From contig NZ_JACIBY010000009.1 in assembly GCF_014195535.1 (NCBI RefSeq), positions 86,633 to 150,632 on the forward strand: DNA of 64,000 nucleotides, read 5' to 3'. The stretch's first letter is position 1. Every line of letters begins with the position of its first letter. The translations under genes were made by a program, and so were the position numbers. The notes under the pieces were generated by a model. That model was not told the DNA's origin. It saw only the letters and a list, made by a program, of their open reading frames with translations, and ran no database searches. Positions 1 to 12,352 of the stretch are shown piece by piece. The DNA is from Runella defluvii (lineage in GTDB: Bacteria; Bacteroidota; Bacteroidia; Cytophagales; Spirosomataceae).

Positions 1-336
1 GTTTTAGGACTTATCGTATCTTATTTCATTCAATACTACTTTGTAGAAGAATTTGGGCTTGTAAAAGGCGGTTCGTATTCTGCTTTTCTGCAAAATTTAG
101 CCATGTCTATTTTATTTATTGCGATGTTTGTGCAAAGACGTGGCAACGAAGGGCAAAGCCTAACCCTTGCTATCAATAAATTTATTGGAACCCTTACCCC
201 TACGATTTTAGTGGGCATAGTTGGATTGCCCGCTTTTGGGAAGCCGAATCTATTCATATTGGTTTTAGGTATTTGTATTGCTGTTTTTGATATTATTTAT
301 ATTGGGTTATTGCTTGGTAAGCAGAAAGAATCATAA
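1..336 (+). CDS. Small multi-pass membrane protein, 5' end outside the window
   Basis: The frame is open from base 1 to a TAA at 334-336, so only the last 111 codons are visible. An internal ATG at 103 could act as a start, but the upstream codons are also hydrophobic and in frame. About four membrane segments can be seen (around residues 1-15, 35-50, 60-80 and 85-107), ending in a short basic tail (GKQKES). I recognise no family. A long inverted repeat begins only about 7 bases after the stop, as in a gene cassette. That link is an inference. Confidence 0.6.
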   Translation, partial: VLGLIVSYFIQYYFVEEFGLVKGGSYSAFLQNLAMSILFIAMFVQRRGNEGQSLTLAINKFIGTLTPTILVGIVGLPAFGKPNLFILVLGICIAVFDIIYIGLLLGKQKES

Positions 337-342
337 AAAACC

Positions 343-437
343 ACTAACAAAGCATGGTCGCACATGGCGGCGAAAGCCCAAGCCACAAAGCCAATGCTCG
401 CCGCCACATCGCCCATGCTGCCGTTAGCGGGTATTTT
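343..437. repeat. Palindromic attC-like element
   Basis: The left arm starts ccactaac and continues through gcatgg to atggcggcga. The right arm is tcgccgccacat, cccatgc, gttagcgg. The reverse complement of the right arm matches the left in three blocks (ctaac, gcatgg, tggcggcga) with small bulges, giving a long imperfect hairpin just downstream of a stop codon. Size and block layout resemble integron attC sites, but the ends do not fit the strict RYYYAAC/GTTRRRY cores and no integrase is visible. Confidence 0.45.
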
Positions 438-488
438 AAAGCGACGCATCAAGAAAGACAACAATGCTATTAAATTTTAGAAATGGCC

Positions 489-612
489 CCCCCGACGGCG
501 CGAGCGTCCCCGCTTGTGACAACGATTACAAGGCTTCCAGCCTTTTTTCGCAACTTGGGCTAAAAGCCTAAAAATAATCAGCACAAGGCAGAACCTCGCG
601 CTATCACGCAAA
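489..612. repeat. Dispersed palindromic repeat, copy A
   Basis: This is the longest of five related copies. In order it holds a small hairpin (cgagcg-tccc-cgcttg), the block gacaacgattac, an inner inverted pair (aaggcttccagcc and ggctaaaagcct), aaaaataatcagcac, and the right end cctcgcgctatcacgc. No open frame is present. It lies between the membrane gene and araC, and the same unit recurs at 3865, 5877, 8762 and 9132. Confidence 0.8.
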
Positions 613-871
613 ATGGTAACTGTTGGCTTTATCGAATAAAAATTTCGTTCAACTACTTGTATATTTGTACTTAGGTCTTTTTATTTGAGAACGCTTATAG
701 GCAATGTAGCCCGCAAAGACTAAACGGGCGCTTGTATGTGTTGACTGTCTTGAGGACTCAACTCATTGCGCAAAAATGAAAAATGGACGCCATTCTAACC
801 GATAACAATTATACGCGTTTGAAAACGATGGAGTGGCGTCTATCCAATCGATTGGCAATTTTTGACAGACC
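613..871. other. Non-coding leader upstream of the AraC gene
   Basis: No convincing gene lies here. The 8-mer TATATTTG at 660-667 fits the Bacteroidota -7 consensus TAnnTTTG but has no clear upstream partner and is far from the araC start. A wide inverted repeat (GACGCCA at 786-792, TGGCGTC at 834-840) sits just before the gene and could be an operator or leader hairpin. Confidence 0.3.
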
Positions 872-1717
872 ATGCAGATAGCACCGACAAAAGAATTATC
901 GCCATATATTAAACACTATCTTTTTTTAGAGGGTGCGGGGGACGGTATCAAAAAACTTCGTTTATTTTCTGATGGTAATACTGGTATGGTTTTGCTTTTT
1001 AAGGGCAATCTTATCTCAAATTATCATGACCACAAAGTTTTAAACTACCCAAATTCGTTTTTGTATGGGCAGATAAGCGAGTTTAAAGACTTGTATTTGG
1101 AGGGAAAAGCATCAATCATAATTGTAGTTTTTCAACCTTTTGGGATAAATCACCTGTTGGGAATACCTGCAAATGAATTAAGAGACAGCATCATTGATAC
1201 AGAGGTATTTTTTGGTAATCAGAGCGCTTTATTTTATGAAAAATTATCTAAACAATCGTTGATAGAAACGAAATTACAAATTTTGAACTCTTTCTTCATT
1301 GAACTCATAACCAAAATATCAGTTTCAAATCAAACCATTATTCATTCCACTTTAAATTTTATTTTGAAAAATAAAGGGTCTGTTACTGTAAATCATTTAG
1401 TAAAATATACAGGCTATACGGAACGGCACATCGAACGAATTTTTAACGAGAGCATCGGATTAAGTCCAAAAAAGTTTGGAAACATTGTGAAGTTGCATTT
1501 CTTTTTGCACCTACTCAAATACAAATCCGACCAAAGTAATATTACCGATTTATGTTACGAAGCTGGCTATGCTGACCAATCGCATTTAATCAAAGAATTC
1601 AAAAAATATACAGGAATAACACCAAGCCAGTATCTGAACCATACAAGTAGGTTGGCAATCAATTTCATGGAAATTAAAGCAGATACAATACGAATGTCGG
1701 GTTTGTACAATTTATAG
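872..1717 (+). CDS. AraC-family transcriptional regulator
   Basis: This is a 281-residue transcription activator or repressor. The N-terminal ~150 residues look like the beta-rich sensing domain common in Bacteroidota AraC proteins (block FLYGQISEFKDLYLEG). The C-terminal ~100 residues carry two helix-turn-helix units. The first is near VTVNHLVKYTGYTERHIERI; the second is near ITDLCYEAGYADQSHLIKEF and ends in the family signature KYTGITPSQY. The nitrilase gene begins 47 bases downstream on the same strand, so regulation of that enzyme is a reasonable inference. The coding sequence is AT-rich compared with the core genes further right, and it sits between attC-like elements, so it may be acquired. 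Confidence 0.9.
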   Translation: MQIAPTKELSPYIKHYLFLEGAGDGIKKLRLFSDGNTGMVLLFKGNLISNYHDHKVLNYPNSFLYGQISEFKDLYLEGKASIIIVVFQPFGINHLLGIPANELRDSIIDTEVFFGNQSALFYEKLSKQSLIETKLQILNSFFIELITKISVSNQTIIHSTLNFILKNKGSVTVNHLVKYTGYTERHIERIFNESIGLSPKKFGNIVKLHFFLHLLKYKSDQSNITDLCYEAGYADQSHLIKEFKKYTGITPSQYLNHTSRLAINFMEIKADTIRMSGLYNL

Positions 1718-1731
1718 GAAAACTCATAATT

Positions 1732-1739
1732 TATTTTTG
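1732..1739 (+). promoter_or_regulatory. Putative -7 promoter element of the nitrilase gene
   Basis: The 8-mer TATTTTTG fits the Bacteroidota -7 consensus TAnnTTTG and lies 25 bases before the nitrilase ATG, a sensible leader length. A TTTG at 1702-1705 is 26 bases upstream, longer than the usual spacing, so the -33 half is doubtful. Confidence 0.4.
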
Positions 1740-1764
1740 TCCCAAATTTGTAAACTATCAAAAA

Positions 1765-2724
1765 ATGGACAAAATAAAAATTTCAACAGCCCAATTCGAG
1801 GCTAAAAATGCCGACAAAGCCTACAATTTATCAGTCATTGAAAAATTGACAAAAAAAGCAGCCGAAGAAGGTTCTGACGTAATAGCATTTCATGAATGCT
1901 CTATTACAGGGTACACATTTGCAAGACATCTAAGCAAAGATCAAATGCTTGATTTGGCAGAATTTGTACCAGATGGCGAAAGCACAAAGAAATTAATAGA
2001 AATAGCTACTAAATATAACATGGTAGTTTTAGCAGGATTGTTTGAAAAAGATGAATATGATAATTTATACAAGCCTTACATCTGTGTAGATAAAAATGGT
2101 TTGATTGCAAAACATCATAAAATACATCCTTTCATAAATCCACATTTAACTGCTGGACAAGACTATACCATTTTTGAAATTCATGGCTGGAAATGTGGTA
2201 TTTTAATTTGTTACGACAACAACATCATTGAAAACGTTAGGGCTACAAGACTTTTGGGAGCAGACATCATTTTTATGCCCCACGTAACCATGTGTACGCC
2301 ATCAACCAGACCAGGTGCGGGTTTTGTTGACCCAAAACTTTGGAAAAACCGTGAAACTGACCCAACGTCTTTGCGTTTGGAGTTTGATGGAATGAAAGGC
2401 AGGGCTTGGTTAATGAAGTGGCTACCAGCAAGAGCGTATGACAACGGCATATATGTGGTATTTTCAAACCCAATTGGCATGGACGACGACCAGCTAAAAA
2501 ATGGTTGTTCAATGATTCTTGACCCATTTGGAGATATTATTGCCGAGTGTCGCAGTTTTGATGATAGTTTTGTAACAGCCACGATTACACCTGAAAAACT
2601 TGAGAATGCAGGTGGAAATCGTTATATCCAAGCAAGAAGACCAAACTTGTACCGTGACATAATTGGGCACAATCATGTCCCAGAGCAAAAAATTATTTGG
2701 CTGAACACAGACGAAAGCGATTAA
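1765..2724 (+). CDS. Nitrilase/carbon-nitrogen hydrolase family enzyme
   Basis: This 319-residue enzyme should hydrolyse a nitrile or amide C-N bond. The family's catalytic triad is visible: Glu44 in FHECSITGY, Lys119 in HHKIHP and Cys149 in ILICYDN. The length fits a stand-alone nitrilase-fold protein of the cytoplasm, with no signal peptide. The substrate cannot be read from the sequence; nitrilase, aliphatic amidase and N-carbamoyl hydrolase activities are all possible. It follows an AraC regulator and has its own possible -7 element. An inverted-repeat element begins 7 bases after the stop codon. Confidence 0.9.
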   Translation: MDKIKISTAQFEAKNADKAYNLSVIEKLTKKAAEEGSDVIAFHECSITGYTFARHLSKDQMLDLAEFVPDGESTKKLIEIATKYNMVVLAGLFEKDEYDNLYKPYICVDKNGLIAKHHKIHPFINPHLTAGQDYTIFEIHGWKCGILICYDNNIIENVRATRLLGADIIFMPHVTMCTPSTRPGAGFVDPKLWKNRETDPTSLRLEFDGMKGRAWLMKWLPARAYDNGIYVVFSNPIGMDDDQLKNGCSMILDPFGDIIAECRSFDDSFVTATITPEKLENAGGNRYIQARRPNLYRDIIGHNHVPEQKIIWLNTDESD

Positions 2725-2731
2725 AAACTGG

Positions 2732-2865
2732 CTATAATAACCAAGCTCTCGTGGTGGCCGAAGGCCAAGCCATAAAGCTCCCGAAAGCGTTCGGGATTGA
2801 ACGAAACTCGGGCGGGCTGCCAGCCTGGTGGCGAGTGCTCACCAAACCCTTTTCTTTTGTTATAG
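2732..2865. repeat. Second attC-like inverted repeat after the nitrilase gene
   Basis: The ends are CTATAA (2732-2737) and TTATAG (2860-2865). Inside them, agctctcg near the left pairs imperfectly with cgagtgct near the right. The middle holds a smaller hairpin (cccgaaagcgttcggg). The element starts immediately after a stop codon, like the one at 343-437, but its arms match less well. Confidence 0.3.
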
Positions 2866-3006
2866 AGTTATTGTTGATCTAGCAACTACCCGCGTTGTTC
2901 GTTGTCTTCCGTAGAGAGACTGGGAACACAAAATAAATAGAGTATTTGTAACACATTGATTGTCAAAGTAGTTACTCATTTATACTTTTAAATTGCTGCT
3001 TTTATA

Positions 3007-3014
3007 TAACTTTG
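3007..3014 (+). promoter_or_regulatory. -7 promoter element very close to the Rpn nuclease start
   Basis: TAACTTTG is a perfect TAnnTTTG match, but its last base is only 4 bases before the ATG at 3019. Transcription would start at or just after the ATG, which suggests a leaderless or nearly leaderless message if the element is used. Confidence 0.4.
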
Positions 3015-3018
3015 CTTC

Positions 3019-3849
3019 ATGGAGGCAAAAAAGAAAAAACGCCAATCAAGTGGGCGGCAACCCGCACAATACGACAAGATTTTCAAAGAGAATCTTGAAG
3101 CTGTGATTTCGAGTATCATGCAAAATGTACTTGAAATTACGGCTGTTTCTGTGGAAGAACTGCCCGATGACATTCAACACACCAAAGAACGTAAACCTGA
3201 TGTACTCAAAAAAGTAACCGATACAAAAGGAGACACTTTTGTGCTTCAAATTGAGTTCCAAGTGAGAGACGAACCTGAAATGGTGTATCGGATGCTTGAA
3301 TATTACGGAATGCTTGAACGAAAGTATAGAACCCCCATAAGGCAATTCGTCATTTTTCTTGGGTCAGGCAATCCTAAAATGCCAACCGAACTTGATAGAG
3401 AACGGTTAAAATTCAGTTATCCACTTGTTTCTCTTTCGACCCTTGACTATCATATTTTCTTGAACTCGGACAAACCCGAAGAAATTATCTTGGGTATTTT
3501 GGCAAACTTCAAAGGCGAAAACCCCGAAAATGCTCTAAAACAGATACTTGTGCGTATCAAAGAAACTACCAAAGGAGATTTTTCGTTAAATAGATACTTT
3601 AATCAGTTGCGAGTTTTAGCGCAACTCCGTAACTTAGAGTTAAATTTAAAAAACGCTATGGATAGCATCGCAGAATACATCAAAGAAGAAAGAGATGTAC
3701 TTTATCTTCGTGGACAAGAGAAGGAAAAAGCAAAGTTTGTTACATACCTCATTAGAGAAGGCAACAAAACTTTTGAGCAAATCGCAGATATTGCCGATAC
3801 TACGGTGGACTTTGTTAAAGCCGTTTATCAGAAGCTCACTAGCAAATAG
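3019..3849 (+). CDS. Rpn-family recombination-promoting nuclease / putative transposase (PD-(D/E)XK)
   Basis: This 276-residue protein belongs to the Rpn/PDDEXK group often annotated as a putative transposase. The nuclease core is visible as KPDVL around residue 60, followed by FVLQIEFQV, which supplies the PD...(D/E)xQ metal site. The block YRMLEYYGMLERKY follows, as is common in this family. The C-terminus has a charged helix (KEERDVLYLRGQEKEK) and a small helix-turn-helix-like end (TFEQIADIADTTVDFVKAVY). E. coli Rpn proteins are DNases that stimulate RecA-independent recombination. Copy B of the dispersed repeat starts 16 bases after the stop, and a broken Rpn gene at 8909 is also flanked by repeat copies. 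A functional link to the repeat is inferred. Confidence 0.85.
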   Translation: MEAKKKKRQSSGRQPAQYDKIFKENLEAVISSIMQNVLEITAVSVEELPDDIQHTKERKPDVLKKVTDTKGDTFVLQIEFQVRDEPEMVYRMLEYYGMLERKYRTPIRQFVIFLGSGNPKMPTELDRERLKFSYPLVSLSTLDYHIFLNSDKPEEIILGILANFKGENPENALKQILVRIKETTKGDFSLNRYFNQLRVLAQLRNLELNLKNAMDSIAEYIKEERDVLYLRGQEKEKAKFVTYLIREGNKTFEQIADIADTTVDFVKAVYQKLTSK

Positions 3850-3864
3850 ACATTCGGAGGGCTT

Positions 3865-3978
3865 TTGCGTCCCCGCTTGTGACAACGATTACAAGGCTTC
3901 CAGCCTTTTTCCGCAACTTAGGCTAGAAGCCTGAAAATAATCAGCACGGGGCAGAACCTCGCGTTATCACGCGCTATC
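3865..3978. repeat. Dispersed palindromic repeat, copy B
   Basis: This copy lacks the outermost gcgcgag end but keeps gcgtccccgcttgtgac, the inner inverted pair aaggcttccagcc / ggctagaagcct, and the right end cctcgcgttatcacgcgctat. It begins 16 bases after the stop codon of the Rpn nuclease gene. Confidence 0.8.
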
Positions 3979-4279
3979 GTCCCCAACCCCAAAATCCCCA
4001 TCGTAAACACCTTCGATTTGGCAAATGCCCGTAGCTGCGTGGGCTTTAGGTGCGTTTGTGGAGTACACTCAAGCTTAGATTGGCGTTAGAATTTGGCGCT
4101 TCTGAGGCAAATCAACTTCCTAATACATTATCTAACAGCAACTTGCCTCGATGAGGTGGAAAGTTGCAGATTGAACGTCCGTGCATCTGTTAAACTTTTG
4201 TGCTAAATTTACCACTACAACACCAAGTGGCAAACCGCTACCTGCCACCCTACCCACCACAAACTGATAGACCTAATCG
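3979..4279. other. Non-coding gap before nhaA
   Basis: No gene is apparent in this 300-base stretch. It contains a hairpin with arms GCAACTT (4138-4144) and AAGTTGC (4160-4166). A chance pair of strict integron core words, ATCTAAC (4130-4136) and GTTAAAC (4189-4195), frames this hairpin off-centre. TAAATTTA near 4204 is a poor -7 candidate for nhaA. Confidence 0.3.
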
Positions 4280-5422
4280 ATGATAGCAACTAAATTGTTT
4301 AAAGAGTTTTTTGAGAGCGAAAAAGCAGGGGGACTTGTTTTAATTGCTTGCACCATTGTGTCGTTGGTACTTACCAATTCACCCTTTGGCACAGATTATC
4401 AGCTTTTTTTCCATAGCAAATTTGCAGGATTATCCGTTGAACATTGGATAAATGACGGCCTTATGGCTATTTTCTTTTTACTCATCGGCTTGGAGTTAGA
4501 AAGGGAAATTTACATTGGCGAACTTTCAAAAATAAAAGACGCGCTGTTGCCATTATTAGGAGCAATTGGCGGGATAGTATTACCCGCAGGAATATTTTTA
4601 ATGTTTAATTATGGCACTGAAACACAGTCGGGTGCAGGCATTCCAATGGCAACAGACATTGCTTTTGCACTAGGGATTCTATCATTATTAGGCAATAAAG
4701 TGCCAACTTCTTTAAAAGTATTTTTAACAGCATTAGCAGTTATTGACGACTTATGTGCTATTATCATAATCGCAATCTTTTACACTAAAACGCTACTTTG
4801 GATTAACTTATTTATTGCGTTATTTATTTTTGGTTTACTTTTGGTGCTCAACAGGCTAAAAGTGAGAAACCTAATTCCTTACCTCCTTGGCGGGATTGCA
4901 ATGTGGTATTTTATGCTTCATTCAGGCGTTCATGCCACTATAACGGGGGTTTTATTGGCCTTTGCCATTCCCTTTGGCAACGGAGACGAAAAATCAACTT
5001 CATACATTTTACAACACTTTTTACACAAGCCCGTTGCATTTATTATTTTACCCATTTTTGCGTTAGCCAACACCGCCATCGTTGTTAGTGGTGACATAAC
5101 TCACACTCTAGCCGAAAACAACAGTTTAGGCATCGCGCTTGGACTAATCGTAGGTAAGCCGCTGGGTATTTTTGTAGTAACATTTTTAGCCGTGACTTTG
5201 GGACTTTGCAAACTACCAACCGACCTCCATTGGAAATCAATTTTTGGCGTTGGTCTTTTGGCTGGAATTGGTTTTACGATGTCCATTTTCATTACGCTAC
5301 TCGCTTTTGACGATGAAACAATCATAAACAACTCAAAATTAGTAATCTTGCTTTCCTCTTTGGCAGCAGGGCTTTTAGGCTTTATCAGTTTGCGACAAAC
5401 ACTAAAACAAACGGCAGACTAA
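4280..5422 (+). CDS. nhaA: Na+/H+ antiporter NhaA
   Basis: This 380-residue inner-membrane protein exchanges sodium or lithium for protons and so sets internal pH and salt tolerance. Family hallmarks are present: LEREIYIGEL near residue 73, GIPMATDIAFALGIL with the conserved Asp126, and the ion-binding Asp pair D156-D157 in ALAVIDDLCAIII. The C-terminal half has GVLLAFAIPFG and GKPLGIF, and the protein ends in the usual hydrophobic helices. The length matches E. coli NhaA (388). Three bases separate its stop from the next gene, so the two probably form an operon. Its base composition is AT-rich, in keeping with an accessory region. Confidence 0.95.
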   Translation: MIATKLFKEFFESEKAGGLVLIACTIVSLVLTNSPFGTDYQLFFHSKFAGLSVEHWINDGLMAIFFLLIGLELEREIYIGELSKIKDALLPLLGAIGGIVLPAGIFLMFNYGTETQSGAGIPMATDIAFALGILSLLGNKVPTSLKVFLTALAVIDDLCAIIIIAIFYTKTLLWINLFIALFIFGLLLVLNRLKVRNLIPYLLGGIAMWYFMLHSGVHATITGVLLAFAIPFGNGDEKSTSYILQHFLHKPVAFIILPIFALANTAIVVSGDITHTLAENNSLGIALGLIVGKPLGIFVVTFLAVTLGLCKLPTDLHWKSIFGVGLLAGIGFTMSIFITLLAFDDETIINNSKLVILLSSLAAGLLGFISLRQTLKQTAD

Positions 5423-5425
5423 ATA

Positions 5426-5869
5426 ATGAAATTGTCCGAATACGTAAAAAAGAGAAATGGAGTTCCAATTGGGAATTCAAGCTCACTTCAAAATAATTTA
5501 CAAAGGTCGCTTGGAGCCAAAAATTTTTCTACCTTTTGGAATTTTTGGAACCCTATTTTTGGCTATTATTTAGGTTTAAAAATTTTCAAACCACTCAAAA
5601 AAGTACTTCCAGCTGGGTTGTCATTAGTTTTAACATTTGCCTTCTGCGGTTTTATTCACGATTTAGTCACGACTTTGGTACGAGGAAGACTTTCATTATT
5701 TTTTTCTGTTTGGTTTCTTTTAATGGGAACAGCCGTCACGATTTCAAAACTGATAGATTACGATTTTTCAAATAAAAAATGGACTTTTAGAGCGTTTATA
5801 AACCTATCAATAATTGGCTTATGTTTGTACTTAACAAACTATCTAAACCAATTATTTAAGTATTATTAG
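5426..5869 (+). CDS. Small membrane protein with an MBOAT-like signature
   Basis: This 147-residue protein has about four hydrophobic segments. The block FSTFWNFWNPIFGYYL, followed by LSLVLTFAFCGFIHDLV, resembles the FWRRWH ... TFLxxGxWHG arrangement of membrane-bound O-acyltransferases, where the second block holds the catalytic histidine (IHD here). It is far shorter than a full MBOAT enzyme (about 400-500 residues). It could be a minimal wax-synthase/MBOAT-like protein or an unrelated membrane protein. It follows nhaA by 3 bases and is probably co-transcribed. Any joint role is unknown. Confidence 0.5.
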   Translation: MKLSEYVKKRNGVPIGNSSSLQNNLQRSLGAKNFSTFWNFWNPIFGYYLGLKIFKPLKKVLPAGLSLVLTFAFCGFIHDLVTTLVRGRLSLFFSVWFLLMGTAVTISKLIDYDFSNKKWTFRAFINLSIIGLCLYLTNYLNQLFKYY

Positions 5870-5876
5870 TCTAGTT

Positions 5877-5923
5877 GGCGCGAGCGTCCCCGCTCGTGCC
5901 AACTATTACAAGGCTTCCAGCCT
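5877..5923. repeat. Dispersed palindromic repeat, copy C (left end only)
   Basis: This truncated copy keeps ggcgcgagcg-tccc-cgctcgtg, caactattac and the first inner arm aaggcttccagcc. It then breaks off into unrelated sequence next to the end of the beta-helix gene. It starts 8 bases after the stop of the MBOAT-like gene. Confidence 0.75.
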
Positions 5924-5925
5924 GA

Positions 5926-8625
5926 TTACTTTTGAGATGAAGCGGGCAGAGGGGGTGCTTCAAAAGTGATACAACCCTGCAAGTTTGTTCGGAAAACAGC
6001 GCCCGATTGCGTCTCAAAACCTGGCAATAACGTCACACTCTTGCTGGCATCAAAAACCACATTCGTCCCCGTAGCGACCGTTCCTAATGCTGTAATGTTC
6101 CCATCTCCAATCAAAAACCCAAACCTATCCTTCCTGCCTGCGTAGTGAGTTCCAGCCTCAATCGGCGCATCTGTAATGTAACGGTTGTCGGGACAGGCTT
6201 CTTTGGGCTGAAATTCATACGCACCAATGTCAAAAACCAAGTAACGGAGATTATTCAGGATGTCAAAAGAGGGAGCCAAAGCATACGTTCCCGCATCGAC
6301 GGCAGGGCTGGCTCGTTGCAGTCGCAGGCCGTCGTCGGTAGTACCGCCAATCAAATCGGGACCGAGCAAATTAGCTTCATTCACAAAAAGTGGATTGACC
6401 GCAAAAAGATTGTTGGAAGCCGTAGCCCCAATGCCATTGGGCGTTTTGTCTAAGGGGTATTGTGACGCGGCAAACTGCAAAATATTGTTTTTAAAATCTC
6501 GGCCATTTCGTTCAATAAAGAAATCGGCATAGATGGTCGTCGTGTTTGTTCCAATCGCGTTTTTGTAAAAAATATTGTTGTACGTTTTATTGATGTCGAT
6601 AGGAGCACCAGCAATGCCCGGGTCGTAGGTGTAAAACGCCCCTCCCGCAGTTTGTGCCGAATTATTATAAAAAGTATTGTTAAAAAACTCTCCAGTATAA
6701 AGGTCATTGCGCACCGCACCACCTACCCCCGCAGCCGCCCTATTCCCTGCAAAAACGTTGTTATTGGCTTTCAACGTAGTTTCCGAAATGTAAAAGCCAC
6801 CTCCATCAGTTGACGCTAAATTTTTATCAAAATAATTGTTGTTCAACACCAAAGGAGAACTCAAACGAAAATAAAAACCCGCGCCAGTAGCGGCACTGTT
6901 GTGCTTTATGATACAATCGGTTATTTCAAAAGAAAAACTGCTGTAGGCATAAATCCCCCCGCCATATTGGTTGGAAGACCCTAACGCATTGCCTCCTTTG
7001 ATGGTAAAACCTTTGAGTAGCACCTGTCTTGCCCCATCATAGGTTGTCAACACATGGTGGGCATTTTCGGCGTTGTTTGAAATCGCCAATGTACCACCCT
7101 CCCCCGTCACGATGTCATTGTCAGAAAAGTCACCCGAAAGAATGGTTTCATTTTGACGGGCTTTTTGAGTCGAATAGTCCGCAACTAATTCCGTACCCAT
7201 AAATCCGCCATAAATTTTTAACCCGCCTTTGAGAGCAAACGTATAGGTACGATTTGATCCGCTCGTGACCCCAAACGCCCGTCGATGCGGTTTGTAAGTG
7301 CCTTTGGCTACTAAAATGGTGTTGTTATCGCAGTTGTTGGCATACAGCAGTGCCGTTCCAAAAGCAGTAGCTCCTCTGAACGCATTGGCCCAACTGCTCC
7401 CATCGTTTAGCCCCGTTGAAAGGTTGACATTGACGTATAATGTTTGATTGGATGGCGCGGTATTTTGATATTCATACGCCCCCATGTCCAATGAGATACT
7501 TGCAATGTTATTGGGAATAGAAGGGACATCAACCTCTCTGGTCTGATTGGCCATGTCCACCCCTTCGGTAGAACCATTCGTGCCTTGGTCTTTGCCAGGT
7601 GTGCATGACGTAATCCGCAAACCGTCATCGCGGCTGCCCCATTTTCCATCAATACCTGCGGGAAAATCTGGATTCATAAATTGAGGCTCGGAGCTCGTAC
7701 AATCGCTACACCAAGTAGAATACCCACCTTGAACATTGGAAGAATAGCCAGTAACTATACTACCATTGTTGGCAATACCTGGCAAGCTCGGGCTATTATT
7801 GTCCCAAATGATGTTATTGATAATGAACGGTCCTGAGTTATAGTTGTACATCGCCCCTCCCGCTACATTGGCGGTATTTTGGACAATGGTACAATTTCTC
7901 ATATCGGCTGCCGAGCCTTCGTGGTTATAGACGCCACCACCACCTGCTGTTGCTGTATTTTCGGCAATGACCGAGTTGGTGATGTACGTATTAGAACTGT
8001 TGTTGAGTACACCCCCGCCATCAGTAGCTTGGTTTTCGACGATTGCACACAGCGCTATTCTCATTTGCGAAAATACACAAAGCACCCCTCCCCCCCAGCT
8101 TCGATAGTAAGTGCGTCCTGCGACTGTCACACTCGTTGTGCCATTGGCGTTTCCGTTTTTGATGGTAAAACGCTCTAAAATGGTATTATTTGCACAGTCG
8201 ATGGCCGTTATTACATGGTAGGCATTGTCGTTGGTTTCGTATTTGGTACCAAGGTCGCCGCTCAAGATTGTCTCGTTGAGGTGGGAATTTCGGGTGGCGC
8301 GATTGGTTTCATTTCCTGCAAAGCCGCCATAAATTCTAAGCCCCGATTTCAACAGAAATGTATTGTTGCGGTTGGTTATGCTGGCCGTACCGCACGTAGC
8401 GCAGCCACTCGGATAAGCTGTGGGGAAATACGTACCTGCCGCTACCCAAAGTTCATCCATGATGGGAGAAGCAATGTTAATCATAGCCTGCAAGTTGCCC
8501 GAAGCATTGACCCATGAGCTACCATCTCCCGTACCAGAGGCAATAGGTTTTACGTAGCGAATCACCGCCAACGCCTGACTAGATACAAACAAGATAAAGA
8601 CGATGAAGGAATATAGTTTTGGCAT
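5926..8625 (-). CDS. Secreted right-handed beta-helix protein with internal duplication and C-terminal coathanger module
   Basis: This 899-residue protein has a signal peptide (residues 1-20, ending SQALA). Two copies of a parallel beta-helix module follow, roughly residues 22-390 and 395-815. Each copy has DGSSWxNA, IYGGF, NETILSGD, a HVxT block, GFTIKxGNA and runs of short Asn-rich turns, and each closes with DxGAYE. This is the 'choice-of-anchor Q' pectate-lyase-like architecture. After the second module comes a ~60-residue C-terminal domain containing SVTLLPGFETQ and ending in QGC, the 3-coathanger stack motif also seen in two other proteins here. It is probably exported to the cell surface and may bind or cleave polysaccharide; no catalytic residues are evident. 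Confidence 0.8.
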   Translation of the reverse strand: MPKLYSFIVFILFVSSQALAVIRYVKPIASGTGDGSSWVNASGNLQAMINIASPIMDELWVAAGTYFPTAYPSGCATCGTASITNRNNTFLLKSGLRIYGGFAGNETNRATRNSHLNETILSGDLGTKYETNDNAYHVITAIDCANNTILERFTIKNGNANGTTSVTVAGRTYYRSWGGGVLCVFSQMRIALCAIVENQATDGGGVLNNSSNTYITNSVIAENTATAGGGGVYNHEGSAADMRNCTIVQNTANVAGGAMYNYNSGPFIINNIIWDNNSPSLPGIANNGSIVTGYSSNVQGGYSTWCSDCTSSEPQFMNPDFPAGIDGKWGSRDDGLRITSCTPGKDQGTNGSTEGVDMANQTREVDVPSIPNNIASISLDMGAYEYQNTAPSNQTLYVNVNLSTGLNDGSSWANAFRGATAFGTALLYANNCDNNTILVAKGTYKPHRRAFGVTSGSNRTYTFALKGGLKIYGGFMGTELVADYSTQKARQNETILSGDFSDNDIVTGEGGTLAISNNAENAHHVLTTYDGARQVLLKGFTIKGGNALGSSNQYGGGIYAYSSFSFEITDCIIKHNSAATGAGFYFRLSSPLVLNNNYFDKNLASTDGGGFYISETTLKANNNVFAGNRAAAGVGGAVRNDLYTGEFFNNTFYNNSAQTAGGAFYTYDPGIAGAPIDINKTYNNIFYKNAIGTNTTTIYADFFIERNGRDFKNNILQFAASQYPLDKTPNGIGATASNNLFAVNPLFVNEANLLGPDLIGGTTDDGLRLQRASPAVDAGTYALAPSFDILNNLRYLVFDIGAYEFQPKEACPDNRYITDAPIEAGTHYAGRKDRFGFLIGDGNITALGTVATGTNVVFDASKSVTLLPGFETQSGAVFRTNLQGCITFEAPPLPASSQK

Positions 8626-8761
8626 GGTTTAGCTAAAGTAAGAAGGTTATCTCACAAATGACGAAATAAACAACTACCTAACCAATAACCACTTAGGTTA
8701 TTTCAGCAAGATTTTATTAAACGGTAATTGGTAAACTAAATGAGTGATGTAACATATGTCT

Positions 8762-8868
8762 CCCGATGGCGCGAGCGTCCCCGCTCGTGACAACTATTAC
8801 AAGGCTTCCAGCCTTTTTCCATAATTTAGGCTAGAAGCCTAAAAATAGTCAGTACGAGGTAGAACCTT
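8762..8868. repeat. Dispersed palindromic repeat, copy D
   Basis: The copy runs from cccgatggcgcgagcgtcc through gctcgtgacaac, the inner pair aaggcttccagcc / ggctagaagcct, and aaaaatagtcagtacgagg. Its right end has decayed (tagaacctttgataacg). It lies directly upstream of the broken Rpn gene. Confidence 0.8.
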
Positions 8869-8883
8869 TGATAACGTTTCTTT

Positions 8884-8891
8884 TATTTTTG
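8884..8891 (+). promoter_or_regulatory. -7 element ahead of the Rpn gene fragment
   Basis: TATTTTTG fits TAnnTTTG and sits 17 bases before the ATG at 8909, a reasonable distance. A TTTG at 8867-8870 is only 13 bases upstream, too close for a normal -33. Confidence 0.35.
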
Positions 8892-8908
8892 CCCTAAAGT
8901 TCATTGCC

Positions 8909-9190
8909 ATGATAAAAAAATTAGTCCGTTTCGATTGGGCGATGAAGAAAATACTTCGCCAAAAAGCCAATTTTGATGTGCTTGAAGGGTTTCTATCAGA
9001 GCTGCTTGGTGAAGATGTGAAAATCAAACAGGTCTTGGACAGTGAAAGCAATAAGGAAACCGTGGACGATAAGTTTAATAGGGTAGGTATTCTCGTAGAA
9101 AACGAGAAAGGCGAGCTTGTTATCATCGAAGTCCCGATGGCGCGAGCGGGGACGCTCGCGCTATCACGCGCTATTGTGCTTCACCATTAA
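8909..9190 (+). pseudogene. Truncated Rpn-family PD-(D/E)XK nuclease gene
   Basis: The first ~75 codons match the start of Rpn/PD-(D/E)XK nuclease-family transposases: FDWAMKKILRQKANFDVLEG, FLSELLGEDVKI and ESNKETVDDKFNRVGILV. The nuclease strand ELVIIEV follows. Right at that point, where the (D/E)xQ residues belong, the frame enters repeat copy E (9132-9175) and ends after 18 unrelated codons. Full-length relatives have about 280 residues, so roughly two thirds of the protein and part of the active site are missing. The fragment lies exactly between repeat copies D and E, which suggests that insertion or recombination at the repeat destroyed the gene. Confidence 0.75.
9132..9175. repeat. 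Dispersed palindromic repeat, copy E (both ends, no centre)
   Basis: The sequence joins the left end tcccgatggcgcgagcg directly to gggacgctcgcg and the right end ctatcacgcgctat. The core cgagcg-ggga-cgctcg is the reverse complement of the cgagcg-tccc-cgctcg hairpin in the other copies. This suggests that complete elements carry that hairpin at both ends in inverted orientation. Confidence 0.65.
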
Positions 9191-9242
9191 ATCGCATCCG
9201 TTTTTTGCTTTTCTGGTCATTGAGACTCTAAACCTATCAACC

Positions 9243-10256
9243 ATGACTTTCTTTCAACGATGGGCGGTGGCGGCCTTGGTTTTTGCCAGCCCCCAACTTC
9301 TAGCGCAGTCGAGCTACCCTACCCTTGGCAAAATCGTCCGCAACGACCCTCGGCTCGATGCGTTGGTCGCCCCTGAAGCCAAAATCGAAGTACTTGCTTC
9401 TGGCTTCATCTGGGCAGAAGGCCCCGTGTGGGTTAAGTCCCAAAACTGTTTGCTGTTTTCGGACGTGCCCGCTAACACCATCTTCAAATGGAGCGCCAAA
9501 GAAGGACTTACTCCCTTTTTGAAACCTTCGGGCTTTACGGGGGCAGGCACCTATGGCGATGAACCTGGCAGCAACGGCCTCACCCTCGACCAACAAGGTC
9601 GCCTCATCATAGCCGAACACGGCGACCGTCGGATTTCGGCCATGCCGTTGTCCAATGCAGGCAAACGAACCATTGCTGATAATTTTCAAGGAAAACGTTT
9701 CAACAGTCCCAACGACGTGGTGCAGCATTCGAGCGGAGCTTATTATTTTACCGATCCACCTTACGGAATGCCCCTCAAACACAACGACCCTACTCGCGAA
9801 ATCGACTGGTTTGGGGTATATCGCGTGGGCAACGACGGCAAGGTGAGTTTAATCACCAAAGAAATGACCCGCCCCAACGGCTTGGCTTTCTCGCCCGACG
9901 AAAAAACGCTCTACGTTGCTCAGTCGGATCCCGAAAAAGCCATCGTTATGGCCTTTCCTGTGCTTGCTGATGGTTCGGTGGGCGCAGGGAAAGTGCTTTT
10001 TGATGCCACGCCGATGGTCAAACAAGGATTAGCAGGGCTACCCGATGGACTCAAAACCGACCAACAAGGCAATCTCTGGTGTACGGGGCCAGGAGGTGTC
10101 TTAATCCTCACGCCAACGGGGCAGTTGTTGGGGCGAATCGACACGGGTGAAGCCACCGCCAACTGCGGCTGGGGAGACGACGGCAGCACCTTGTACATCA
10201 CCGCCGATATGTACCTGTGCCGCATCAAAACCAAGGTAAAAGGAGCGGGTTGGTAA
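9243..10256 (+). CDS. SMP-30/gluconolactonase-family secreted lactonase
   Basis: The ATG at 9243 gives a 337-residue protein with a clean signal peptide (MTFFQRWAVAALVFASPQLLAQ). Upstream codons in this frame lie in repeat copy E and are not coding. The mature part is a six-bladed beta-propeller of the SMP-30/LRE family. Metal-site residues typical of the family can be seen: Glu in GFIWAEGPVW, Asn in FNSPNDVV, and Asn/Asp in RPNGLAFSPDEKTLYV. Members hydrolyse sugar lactones such as gluconolactone in the periplasm. It is followed by a strong terminator, so it is transcribed separately from mrdA. Confidence 0.88.
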   Translation: MTFFQRWAVAALVFASPQLLAQSSYPTLGKIVRNDPRLDALVAPEAKIEVLASGFIWAEGPVWVKSQNCLLFSDVPANTIFKWSAKEGLTPFLKPSGFTGAGTYGDEPGSNGLTLDQQGRLIIAEHGDRRISAMPLSNAGKRTIADNFQGKRFNSPNDVVQHSSGAYYFTDPPYGMPLKHNDPTREIDWFGVYRVGNDGKVSLITKEMTRPNGLAFSPDEKTLYVAQSDPEKAIVMAFPVLADGSVGAGKVLFDATPMVKQGLAGLPDGLKTDQQGNLWCTGPGGVLILTPTGQLLGRIDTGEATANCGWGDDGSTLYITADMYLCRIKTKVKGAGW

Positions 10257-10281
10257 GCCACAAAACTTTAAAAATCGCAAT

Positions 10282-10312
10282 AAAAAAAGAAGGCCAAAAG
10301 CCTTCTTTTTTT
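10282..10312. terminator. Intrinsic terminator after the lactonase gene
   Basis: A 13-base perfect stem (AAAAAAAGAAGGC / GCCTTCTTTTTTT) closes a 5-base loop and ends in a T run. The A run on the other side would make it work in both directions. Confidence 0.85.
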
Positions 10313-10432
10313 ATTGAATATCTTCTCAAAATTTCTTGTAAATCGCTTAAAACCTACGAACTTTGTAAAGTAATTACTTGTCTATATAGTAAGAAGTAAG
10401 CGAGGGAATAATACGTTAAAACCATTAGTTAG

Positions 10433-12352
10433 ATGTCTGAGAGTAGAAAATTTTATGTTTATGGGTTGTTTGTGGTGGTAGGAATAATTTTTCTATTTCG
10501 ACTATTGTACCTCCAAGTTCTTGACAATACGTACGAAACCGCGAGCAACTCCATCCGCGCCATTCCCGATGTGCCGATGCGGGGACAAGTCTATGACCGC
10601 AACGGAAAACTGATTGTTTTCAACACCCTCGTGTATGACTTATACGTGACGCCAAGCAAAGTGAGAGTAGCCGATACGTTGGCGCTTTGCAATTTATTTA
10701 AAATAACACGTCCCAAGTTTGATAGCCTAATGCAAGCGGCCAGAACATTTTCTTACCGCAAGCCTTCCCTTTTTCTTCGTCAGCTTTCGAAGCAAGAGTT
10801 TGCCCGCATTCAGGATGCTCTGGTGGACTACCCTGGGTTCGACTATCAAAAAAGCTCCATTCGGACCTATTCCGCCCCTACCCTTGCGCACGCATTGGGC
10901 TACGTGAGCGAGATTTCAAAAAAACAACTTGATGACCAAGACTACCCTTACTATCGTCAAGGAGACTTGGTAGGGCAAAGTGGATTAGAAAAATTTTATG
11001 AAGAGCAACTTCGCGGTCGCCGAGGGGTGCGCTACGTCATGCAAGATGTGAACGGTGTAGCCAAGGGCGCTTGGAAAGATGGAGAAATGGATACCGTGGC
11101 CATGGCAGGACAAAACCTCTATACAAGTATCGACTTAGATTTACAGCAGTATGTCGATAGTTTGATGCTACATAAAGCAGGTGCTGTGGTGGCCATTGAG
11201 CCTTCCTCTGGCGAAGTGATTGCGATTACTTCTGCACCTAGTTACGACCCTGCGCTGTTTGCAACCCGCGATTTTTCAAAAAACTACACTGCACTTCAAA
11301 AAAACCCTTATCGCCCGCTCTATAACCGCGCTGTAATGGGAAGCTACCGCCCTGGTTCTACGTTTAAGACTGTGCAGGCGTTGGTAGCCATGCAAGAGGG
11401 CGTCATTGGTCCAGGAAGTGTGTTTAGCCACGCAGGAGCACCCATGAAATGCCACGGTCACGGAGCACTTTCAGGTGTAAACAGCGCCATTCAGTGGTCG
11501 TGTAACCCTTACTTTTACCACGTTTTCCGTCGGATGATTTATGCCAATGCCGAGAAAAATGCGTTTAAGGCTTCCTCTATTGGCCTCAAAAAATGGCACG
11601 AATACACCGAAAAATTCGGGTTCGGACAAAAACTTGGCGTGGACTTACCCAGCGAAGCCAAAGGGGTACTCCCTAGCGTTGAGTATTATGACAAACGCAT
11701 TGGCAAAAACCAATGGCGTTTTGGGCAAATTTACTCCCTCAGCATCGGGGAAGGTGAATTGCTCATTACTCCGCTAAAATTGGCCAACTTAGCCGCCACC
11801 ATTGCCAACCGTGGCTGGTTTAAAGTTCCGCACTTGGTGAAAGGAGTTGGAAAAAACAACAATCCACTTCCCGAGTACAACGAAAAGCACGAAACGGGGG
11901 TTGCCCGTTATTACTATGAACCCGTCGTGAATGGCATGGAAATGGCCGTCGTCCGTGGTACAGTGGCGCGTGGGGCAATGATTCCAGGCATTCAGATGTG
12001 CGGTAAGACAGGAACTTCACAGAACAAAAAAGGAAAAGACCACTCCATTTTTATTGCATTTGCGCCCAAAGACAACCCCAAAATTGCGATTGCCGTATTT
12101 GTTGAAAACGCAGGGTTTGGAGGGTTTGCAGCCGCTCCTGTGGCTTCTTTGGCCATCGAACGCTACCTCAATGGGCACGTTCAACGGAAAGCCTACGAAC
12201 AAGAATGGAAAAACAAAAACTTCCTTCAAAACGTAATTCTTCCCCGTTCGCAACAACCAAAACCCAAAAATGTTGCTCCCACGCCCCTCAAACCAGAGGC
12301 CACGATTGTCCACCAAACAGCTCCCAAAAGCACAGCGGTACCTGCGCCTTAG
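10433..12352 (+). CDS. mrdA: Penicillin-binding protein 2 (elongation transpeptidase)
   Basis: This 639-residue peptidoglycan transpeptidase belongs to the elongasome. It has one N-terminal membrane anchor (residues 9-27) and a dimerisation part starting at MRGQVYDRNGKLI. The transpeptidase domain has active-site Ser309 in RPGSTFK, SxN in WSCNPYF and the KTG motif in MCGKTGTSQN. The C-terminus has a Pro/Lys-rich tail (QQPKPKNVAPTPLKPEATI). rodA begins 55 bases downstream, giving the usual PBP2-RodA pair that builds the side wall. The mreBCD genes that often precede them are not here; a lactonase gene and a terminator come first. Confidence 0.95.
   Translation: MSESRKFYVYGLFVVVGIIFLFRLLYLQVLDNTYETASNSIRAIPDVPMRGQVYDRNGKLIVFNTLVYDLYVTPSKVRVADTLALCNLFKITRPKFDSLMQAARTFSYRKPSLFLRQLSKQEFARIQDALVDYPGFDYQKSSIRTYSAPTLAHALGYVSEISKKQLDDQDYPYYRQGDLVGQSGLEKFYEEQLRGRRGVRYVMQDVNGVAKGAWKDGEMDTVAMAGQNLYTSIDLDLQQYVDSLMLHKAGAVVAIEPSSGEVIAITSAPSYDPALFATRDFSKNYTALQKNPYRPLYNRAVMGSYRPGSTFKTVQALVAMQEGVIGPGSVFSHAGAPMKCHGHGALSGVNSAIQWSCNPYFYHVFRRMIYANAEKNAFKASSIGLKKWHEYTEKFGFGQKLGVDLPSEAKGVLPSVEYYDKRIGKNQWRFGQIYSLSIGEGELLITPLKLANLAATIANRGWFKVPHLVKGVGKNNNPLPEYNEKHETGVARYYYEPVVNGMEMAVVRGTVARGAMIPGIQMCGKTGTSQNKKGKDHSIFIAFAPKDNPKIAIAVFVENAGFGGFAAAPVASLAIERYLNGHVQRKAYEQEWKNKNFLQNVILPRSQQPKPKNVAPTPLKPEATIVHQTAPKSTAVPAP

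Follow-up and report, generated by a model that had tools for sequence, protein, structure and literature searches.

Runella defluvii carries, in the first 9.2 kb of the window (the whole 64,000-nucleotide stretch analysed here, C9:86633-150632 of a 7.99-Mb genome of 50 contigs, own-genome coordinates being written contig:position), five copies of a palindromic repeat, several of them beside genes for Rpn-like nucleases. The question raised by this locus is what kind of element the repeat is, and which enzyme acts on it. An earlier note on this DNA likened the repeat to repetitive extragenic palindrome (REP) elements and proposed the Rpn nucleases as its enzymes, naming a whole-genome count, enrichment beside Rpn genes and empty orthologous sites as checks. 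The analysis points, with good though not complete confidence, to a different arrangement: a family of REPINs, that is, REP doublets forming hairpins, served by a Bacteroidota REP-associated tyrosine transposase (RAYT), whose copies act as joints for recombination, with the Rpn genes as cargo and the shortest of the five window copies, copy E, as a REPIN that has lost its centre.

Anatomy and distribution of the repeat

A full copy measures ~112 bp. It begins with a GATR foot, continues through a hairpin (GCGCGAGCG-tccc-CGCTCGTG) and an inner palindrome (AAGGCTTCYAGCC/GGCTRGAAGCCT), and closes with an inverted hairpin and foot, ending YATC. In a structure alignment of 22 copies, the full ones picked from a census of 53, a structure of 27 pairs is realised in 94% of cells, and two-sided changes are found at 10 pairs as against 4.7 ± 1.3 in shuffles, a signal that is destroyed by sliding the partners. 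One mispair is invariant, being G·T in 22/22 left hairpins and its mirror A·C in 21/21 right hairpins with letters there; each hairpin, read from its own foot, therefore bears the same polarity mark. The alignment and pair counts thus place two inverted REP hairpins in a single unit, as in REPINs and bacterial interspersed mosaic elements, with a conserved tetranucleotide foot at either end that reads GATR or close to it, where GT[AG]G would be canonical. A doublet of REP hairpins in inverted orientation, the repeat is a REPIN, and this anatomy of GATR foot, G·T mispair and doublet is defined here for a thinly described Bacteroidota type of REP.

The repeat is widespread in the genome. A pattern search with the hairpin of the earlier note, allowing at most two mismatches, gave 22 genome matches and none for the reversed control pattern, while a covariance model gave 100 two-strand matches in the own genome but left 16 of 28 other genomes without any; together, these results exclude chance. 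BLAST returned 50 matches in the own genome. The census itself covered 40 fetched stretches and fell from 53 copies to 52 once a 25-nt match (C8:34653) was dropped; with copy E, the partial copy C11:165290 and C1:693317, which was seen only in the model search, all added by hand, the total is about 55 copies, partial ones included, in 19 clusters. Nearly all of them lie between open reading frames (ORFs), and their number is below the hundreds of Pseudomonas. Two stand just upstream of the window (C9:84726 and C9:84968) and about 48 on other contigs, and 20 fetched stretches around other Rpn and Y1 genes of the own genome hold none. Over the whole window, searched with the covariance model with filters off, the next-best matches after the five copies have E = 0.08 and 0.4, which agrees with the earlier count of five in the first 9.2 kb and none in the remainder. 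No match to copy D turned up when plasmid records were searched by BLAST.

Among 39 fuller copies, pairs less than 12 kb apart have a median likeness of 92.9% (62 pairs), as against 81.1% for the others (679 pairs).

A candidate transposase and the place of the Rpn genes

Elsewhere in the genome, a RAYT gene lies inside an array of the same repeat (Table 1), as expected of a cognate enzyme of a REPIN. The encoded protein scores 100 bits against NF047646, the profile for REP-associated tyrosine transposases (cut-off 80), and carries the HLH and Y..NP motifs of a TnpA-REP, with H59, H61 and Y143 invariant in 12 relatives; a phmmer search against PDB gave no match at E 0.1. Its neighbourhoods were compared over 30 similarity loci in the own genome and its relatives, with the repeat scored at E <= 0.01 and a short G018 contig-end fragment excluded. 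The repeat adjoins the gene in all four loci with 58-100% identity, though weakly (E = 0.002) in G003, and in only one of the 26 others, while in named genomes, of which the nearest carriers are Dyadobacter, it does so in 3/3 loci at 68-87% identity and 1/5 at 45-52%. Pooled, all seven loci that are at least 58% identical have the repeat beside the RAYT, one of them weakly. The own genome holds one close RAYT gene, the other match being 29% identical, and not a transposase in a multicopy unit as in IS200/IS605. The repeat's enzyme is most likely this RAYT and not Rpn.

Other RAYT genes are found beside other repeats. A second one in the own genome (C4:567330-567776), also above the cut-off, is embedded in tandem copies of a different palindrome (around TTTCGGTTTTGAGAAACCGAAA; L059, ~9546-11600), and a distant relative in G010 (L183 5500-9000) lies in an array of what is, by eye, the same palindrome type; these two arrays appear to represent another REPIN-like family. 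In G016, a diverged RAYT-like gene (L184 6258-7153) has on both sides a 126-nt repeat that differs from the GATR repeat also present there.

The excess of Rpn genes beside copies, for its part, is genuine in the own genome. When 17 PF12784 matches were pooled with 12 matches of the window gene into 25 loci, six were found within 300 bp of a copy; with the 19 copy clusters placed independently at random, the mean is 0.18 and none of 2000 placements reaches six. Four of the 19 clusters contain an Rpn locus, and PDDEXK_2 is the commonest Pfam family in the 68 ORFs that neighbour copies, with three members and no other family above two. These figures, far above chance, would suit the proposal that the repeat is a substrate of the Rpn nucleases, moved by them as TnpA-REP enzymes move REPs. 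However, 19 of the 25 own loci have no copy within 300 bp, and the same is true of 54 of the 56 loci considered in G010, G003, G018, G006 and G002 (57 in all, one G006 locus having been left out), the two exceptions being orthologous to own-genome loci. Conversely, G016 holds copies of the repeat and no Rpn of either kind searched. The distant genomes G026 and G023, from other families of the order, have 21 and 15 PF12784 matches and no copies. Repeat and Rpn therefore do not co-occur as an Rpn-driven element would demand, and the copies of G016, together with the many Rpn loci that lack a copy, make Rpn unlikely as the enzyme. Further, a RAYT surrounded by the repeat exists, and the study of rpn genes, in the portion used here, reports no evidence of their autonomous transposition (PMC10327210). 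Thus, while the enrichment anticipated by the earlier note was borne out, the pairing of nuclease and substrate that it proposed was not, and it is now very improbable. The Rpn genes are probably over-represented cargo between copies.

Gain, loss and inversion at repeat copies

The G010 genome is syntenic around the clusters, mostly at 90-95% identity. Copy C5:413776 is missing in both G010 and G003. The RAYT gene and its array are missing in G010 and G007, which share the same short junction, and the whole RAYT neighbourhood is missing in G003. Since G007 is more distant (86-88% to the own genome and 88% to G010, as against 92-93% between the own genome and G010) and yet has the same junction as G010, the RAYT and its array look like a gain in the own genome. 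Empty orthologous sites of the kind sought by the earlier note thus exist. On either side of copy C2:490434 (locus C2:490394-490598) stands a 30-bp direct repeat, of which G010 has one unit only; for such an element, so long a duplication is unusual. This site is not polarised, with the copy missing in G010, two copies in G003, and G007 lacking the copy but bearing other differences. In the three sites read, the duplications are 30 bp, 5 bp and none, unlike the constant length of a DDE-type miniature inverted-repeat transposable element (MITE). A further candidate, the G003 junction at the right end of the window cluster, was not counted as an empty site, since its abutting blocks hold a leftover right foot, the scar of a deletion.

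Copies may also lose their centres. At C1:341406, the own genome has a full copy where the orthologous G010 site has the same kind of double foot as copy E, and a double foot can, according to part of a published account, arise via central deletion of an inverted REP dimer (PMC6006769). The earlier statement that copy E joins left and right ends was correct, but its likeness to MITE-type inverted ends was not sustained, copy E being better read as a REPIN whose centre was lost.

Two copies in one genome can correspond to a single copy in another. In the flank test applied, the outer flanks of a copy pair match both flanks of one sister copy, while the inner flanks show no match there apart from a 13-bp hit, and three such two-copies-to-one events pass it. 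The pair C1:1084031 to 1086168, which encloses two genes, one of them Rpn, stands against the single copy G010:826728, itself a hybrid, its left half being that of one own copy and its right half that of the other; the enclosed Rpn is also present in G003 (78% DNA identity), so that G010 most likely lost it. In the reverse direction, a G003 pair around a 351-aa ORF corresponds to the single own copy C2:490434. Finally, the segment from C9:84726 to 90499 (5.7 kb, six ORFs including an AraC-type gene, a carbon-nitrogen hydrolase and an Rpn-like gene) corresponds to the single copy G010:1796022. Inversion is seen as well: G010 has ~26 kb (C1:951-978 kb) in the opposite orientation, and of the four ends of this block three are at most 21 bp from a copy and one is 2 kb off. 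Where the window cluster ends on the right, the own genome has copy D, a broken Rpn gene and copy E, G010 has a different, intact Rpn gene (67% amino-acid identity to the truncated one over 72 residues) and a full copy, and G003 has the leftover foot.

A comparison of breakpoints extends these cases. The 256 kb around clusters, stretches that were chosen for holding copies, contain 25 differences of at least 200 bp between the own genome and G010 and hence 50 breakpoints, with copy E and C11:165290 again added by hand. Breakpoints lie within 20 bp of an own copy in 17/50 cases, as against 3% under uniform placement, and within intergenic DNA only in 14/39 cases, as against 12.7% expected (P = 2e-4). 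Both own ends lie within 35 bp of a copy in seven events, one end in five and neither in 13. Taken together, these observations suggest that the copies probably serve as joints for recombination and that Rpn genes form part of the variable cargo between them, a role that two clear events, one weaker event and a moderate breakpoint excess support but do not prove. Among the entries listed in a search of openly licensed literature, nothing bore on recombination or the exchange of genes at REPs or RAYTs, or on Rpn with RAYT, which is no proof of absence.

The mechanism that would follow is one in which the REPIN is a non-autonomous mobile element served by the RAYT (TnpA-REP). Going by its family, this HUH/Tyr enzyme would bind single-stranded folded REPs by their foot, stem and conserved mispair, and move them. 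Between similar nearby copies, homologous recombination would then add, remove or invert the genes between them, Rpn genes would be carried as cargo rather than acting as the enzyme, and the occasional loss of a REPIN centre would leave a double foot such as copy E.

Several observations weigh against this account. The foot is noncanonical. The copies form clusters and resemble one another locally, which differs from the random spread over extragenic space reported for P. fluorescens REPINs in the part of the study drawn on (PMC3116915). G010, G016, G011, G012 and G007 have 58, 18, 7, 6 and 4 two-strand matches without a close RAYT, which enzyme loss or exchange would explain, while G005 and G009 lack repeat matches despite a RAYT of 46-51% identity. 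The C9 event has a left flank of only 82% over 219 bp, with a second match of 77% inside the segment, and three more pairs, C8:67816/68932, C3:197724/200192 and C2:108359/112246, did not pass the flank test and are left out of the events, the first of them looking like a duplication of flank plus copy. Added to these are the own Rpn loci that stand apart from any copy, the selection of the stretches compared, and the 13 large differences with neither end at a copy.

The last two points lend themselves to an alternative in which the repeat is indeed a REPIN but its copies are not causal, copies and Rpn genes merely collecting in tolerant variable regions where copies make up much of the intergenic DNA. 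Restricting the comparison to intergenic DNA does reduce the excess at copies from about 11-fold to about 3-fold, and this alternative is a possible one, if doubtful. Yet an intergenic excess persists, and both the hybrid copy G010:826728 and the matching outer flanks around one copy in three events are what crossover predicts. Going beyond crossover, it is also conceivable, though rather unlikely, that exchange is cassette-like: REPIN-bounded modules with anti-phage Rpn as favoured cargo would be swapped between related bacteria at the sites of REPINs, and the RAYT would itself move both its own REPtron and repeat-gene-repeat units, each as a block.

Two further explanations take the repeat out of the REPIN frame or give it another purpose. 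The tandem orientation of the gaps at 40 of 52 copies (8 being convergent and 4 divergent), often close after a stop codon, would suit repeats kept mainly for a role in RNA, such as transcription ends or mRNA stability, although seven of the tandem gaps are the RAYT array and no background of gap types was computed. Over window positions 1-12000, however, no Rfam family exceeds its gathering score, and a mispair appearing as G·T in the left hairpin and as A·C in the right one marks DNA strand polarity rather than a single transcript. An RNA role as the main one is therefore improbable, but one alongside mobility could coexist with it. A sub-threshold Rfam match of copy D to a microRNA family was rejected as a chance likeness of hairpins. 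Integron attC sites, with the intervening genes as cassettes, would in turn share the folded palindromes, the length and, in several clusters, a copy-gene-copy spacing of about 1 kb. The core sites of attC are RYYYAAC/GTTRRRY; the copies end in GATR...YATC instead, core sites were not seen by eye (no integrase search was made), copies stand head to tail without genes around the RAYT, and the gaps do not keep a single gene direction. This reading can be given hardly any credence. The REPIN reading, with its RAYT and with copies as joints, is preferred to each of these.

The window cluster and its relation to known systems

Table 1. Repeat copies and nuclease genes in the window (window coordinates), and the RAYT gene (contig coordinates)
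Feature	Position	Strand	Description	Score or basis
Copy A	494-605	+	full-length REPIN: foot GACGG, two inverted REP hairpins, inner palindrome	covariance model 101 bits
Copy B	3857-3968	+	REPIN with degenerate left foot; right border of segment missing in G010	
Copy C	model match 5874-5976; left half of REPIN 5876..5932	+	between 147-aa ORF and opposite-strand 899-aa ORF	
Copy D	8765-8875	+	near-complete REPIN, degraded right end	covariance model 95 bits
Copy E	9136-9165	+	30-bp double foot GATGGCGCGAGCG/CGCTCGCGCTATC, left foot joined to right foot	alignment; weak model match ending 9165
Intact Rpn-like PD-(D/E)XK gene	3019-3849	+	276 aa; ends just before copy B; within 5.7-kb segment missing in G010	
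Truncated Rpn-like ORF	8909-9190	+	93 aa; between copies D and E, running into E	PDDEXK_2 35.8 bits, cut-off 27.4
RAYT gene	C2:562135-562662		175 aa; preceded by five full copies in tandem, followed by one and a half more; cluster C2:561423-562836	

Within the window, copies A and D are nearly complete. The association with Rpn genes that the earlier note described holds in part: copies B, D and E touch Rpn-like genes, but copy A is 2.4 kb and copy C, of which only the left half remains, 2 kb from the nearest one. The gene before copy B is where it was said to be, yet its assignment to Rpn is weak (TIGR01784 22 bits against a cut-off of 52, and no Pfam match). The broken gene between copies D and E, on the other hand, does match its nuclease family above the cut-off, and its reading frame extends into copy E. 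The likening of the repeat to REP elements was well founded.

Some neighbouring features were also recorded. The 899-aa ORF (5926-8625, strand -) has no Pfam match, and its end overlaps the truncated copy C. The same tail of ~140 bp follows copy A (window 606-760) and copy C9:84726 (C9:84825-84967), the upstream tail being interrupted by copy C9:84968, and the shared tail represents a local duplication of a copy plus its tail. Two other long imperfect intergenic palindromes, at 343-432 (CACTAAC...GTTAGCGG) and ~2731-2850 (AACCAAGC...GGTTTGG-like), are unrelated to the repeat and attC-like to the eye only.

By motifs and description, the transposase is a candidate member of the Bacteroidetes TnpA-REP subclass 2.6, or RAYT group 5. 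In the part of its description used here, which does not set out the anatomy of the present repeat, this subclass comprises proteins of ~179 aa with the motifs WQ, YIH[QN]NP and NH[LIV]H, whose genes stand between 'atypical secondary structures' that lack GT[AG]G and recur elsewhere in the genome (PMC6006769). The own protein agrees in phylum, in length and in its WQ motif, as do the flanking palindromes and their copies elsewhere, and the relatives in G003 and G006 read YIHQNP; in contrast, the own protein reads YIWNNP and SHLH. With the REPINs of P. fluorescens, as far as they are described in the text consulted, the repeat shares an inverted REP doublet of ~110 bp, a less conserved spacer, an intergenic location and a tie to a RAYT, but it differs in its GATR foot, in its number of about 55, in its clustered and locally alike copies, and in their presence at gene-content breakpoints (PMC3116915).

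The invariant mispair likewise has a counterpart. In E. coli, conserved mispairs of REPs are stated, in the passages at hand, to be needed for activity and to tell a REP from its complement (PMC8266576). Like the REPs of that TnpA-REP group 2 system, the present hairpin is imperfect with a conserved mispair, although it has a single G·T in place of the AA-GC bulge and lacks GTAG (PMC8266576). As to the cargo, rpn genes have been described as movable anti-phage toxin-antitoxin genes that are gained and lost one at a time among relatives and are not believed to be transposases, as here; the part of that study drawn on gives them no defined ends, whereas a minority of the rpn loci here are bounded by REPIN copies (PMC10327210).

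A candidate enzyme and a defined anatomy now let the recognition rules of E. coli and Pseudomonas be tested on a distant branch. Crossover between copies, moreover, is a concrete and testable route for the gain and loss of rpn genes, whose ends were reported to be variable, and cassette-like exchange, if true, would supply the missing ends of rpn gene mobility. If general, such a role would make REPINs not only hitchhikers but also joints where accessory and defence genes change.

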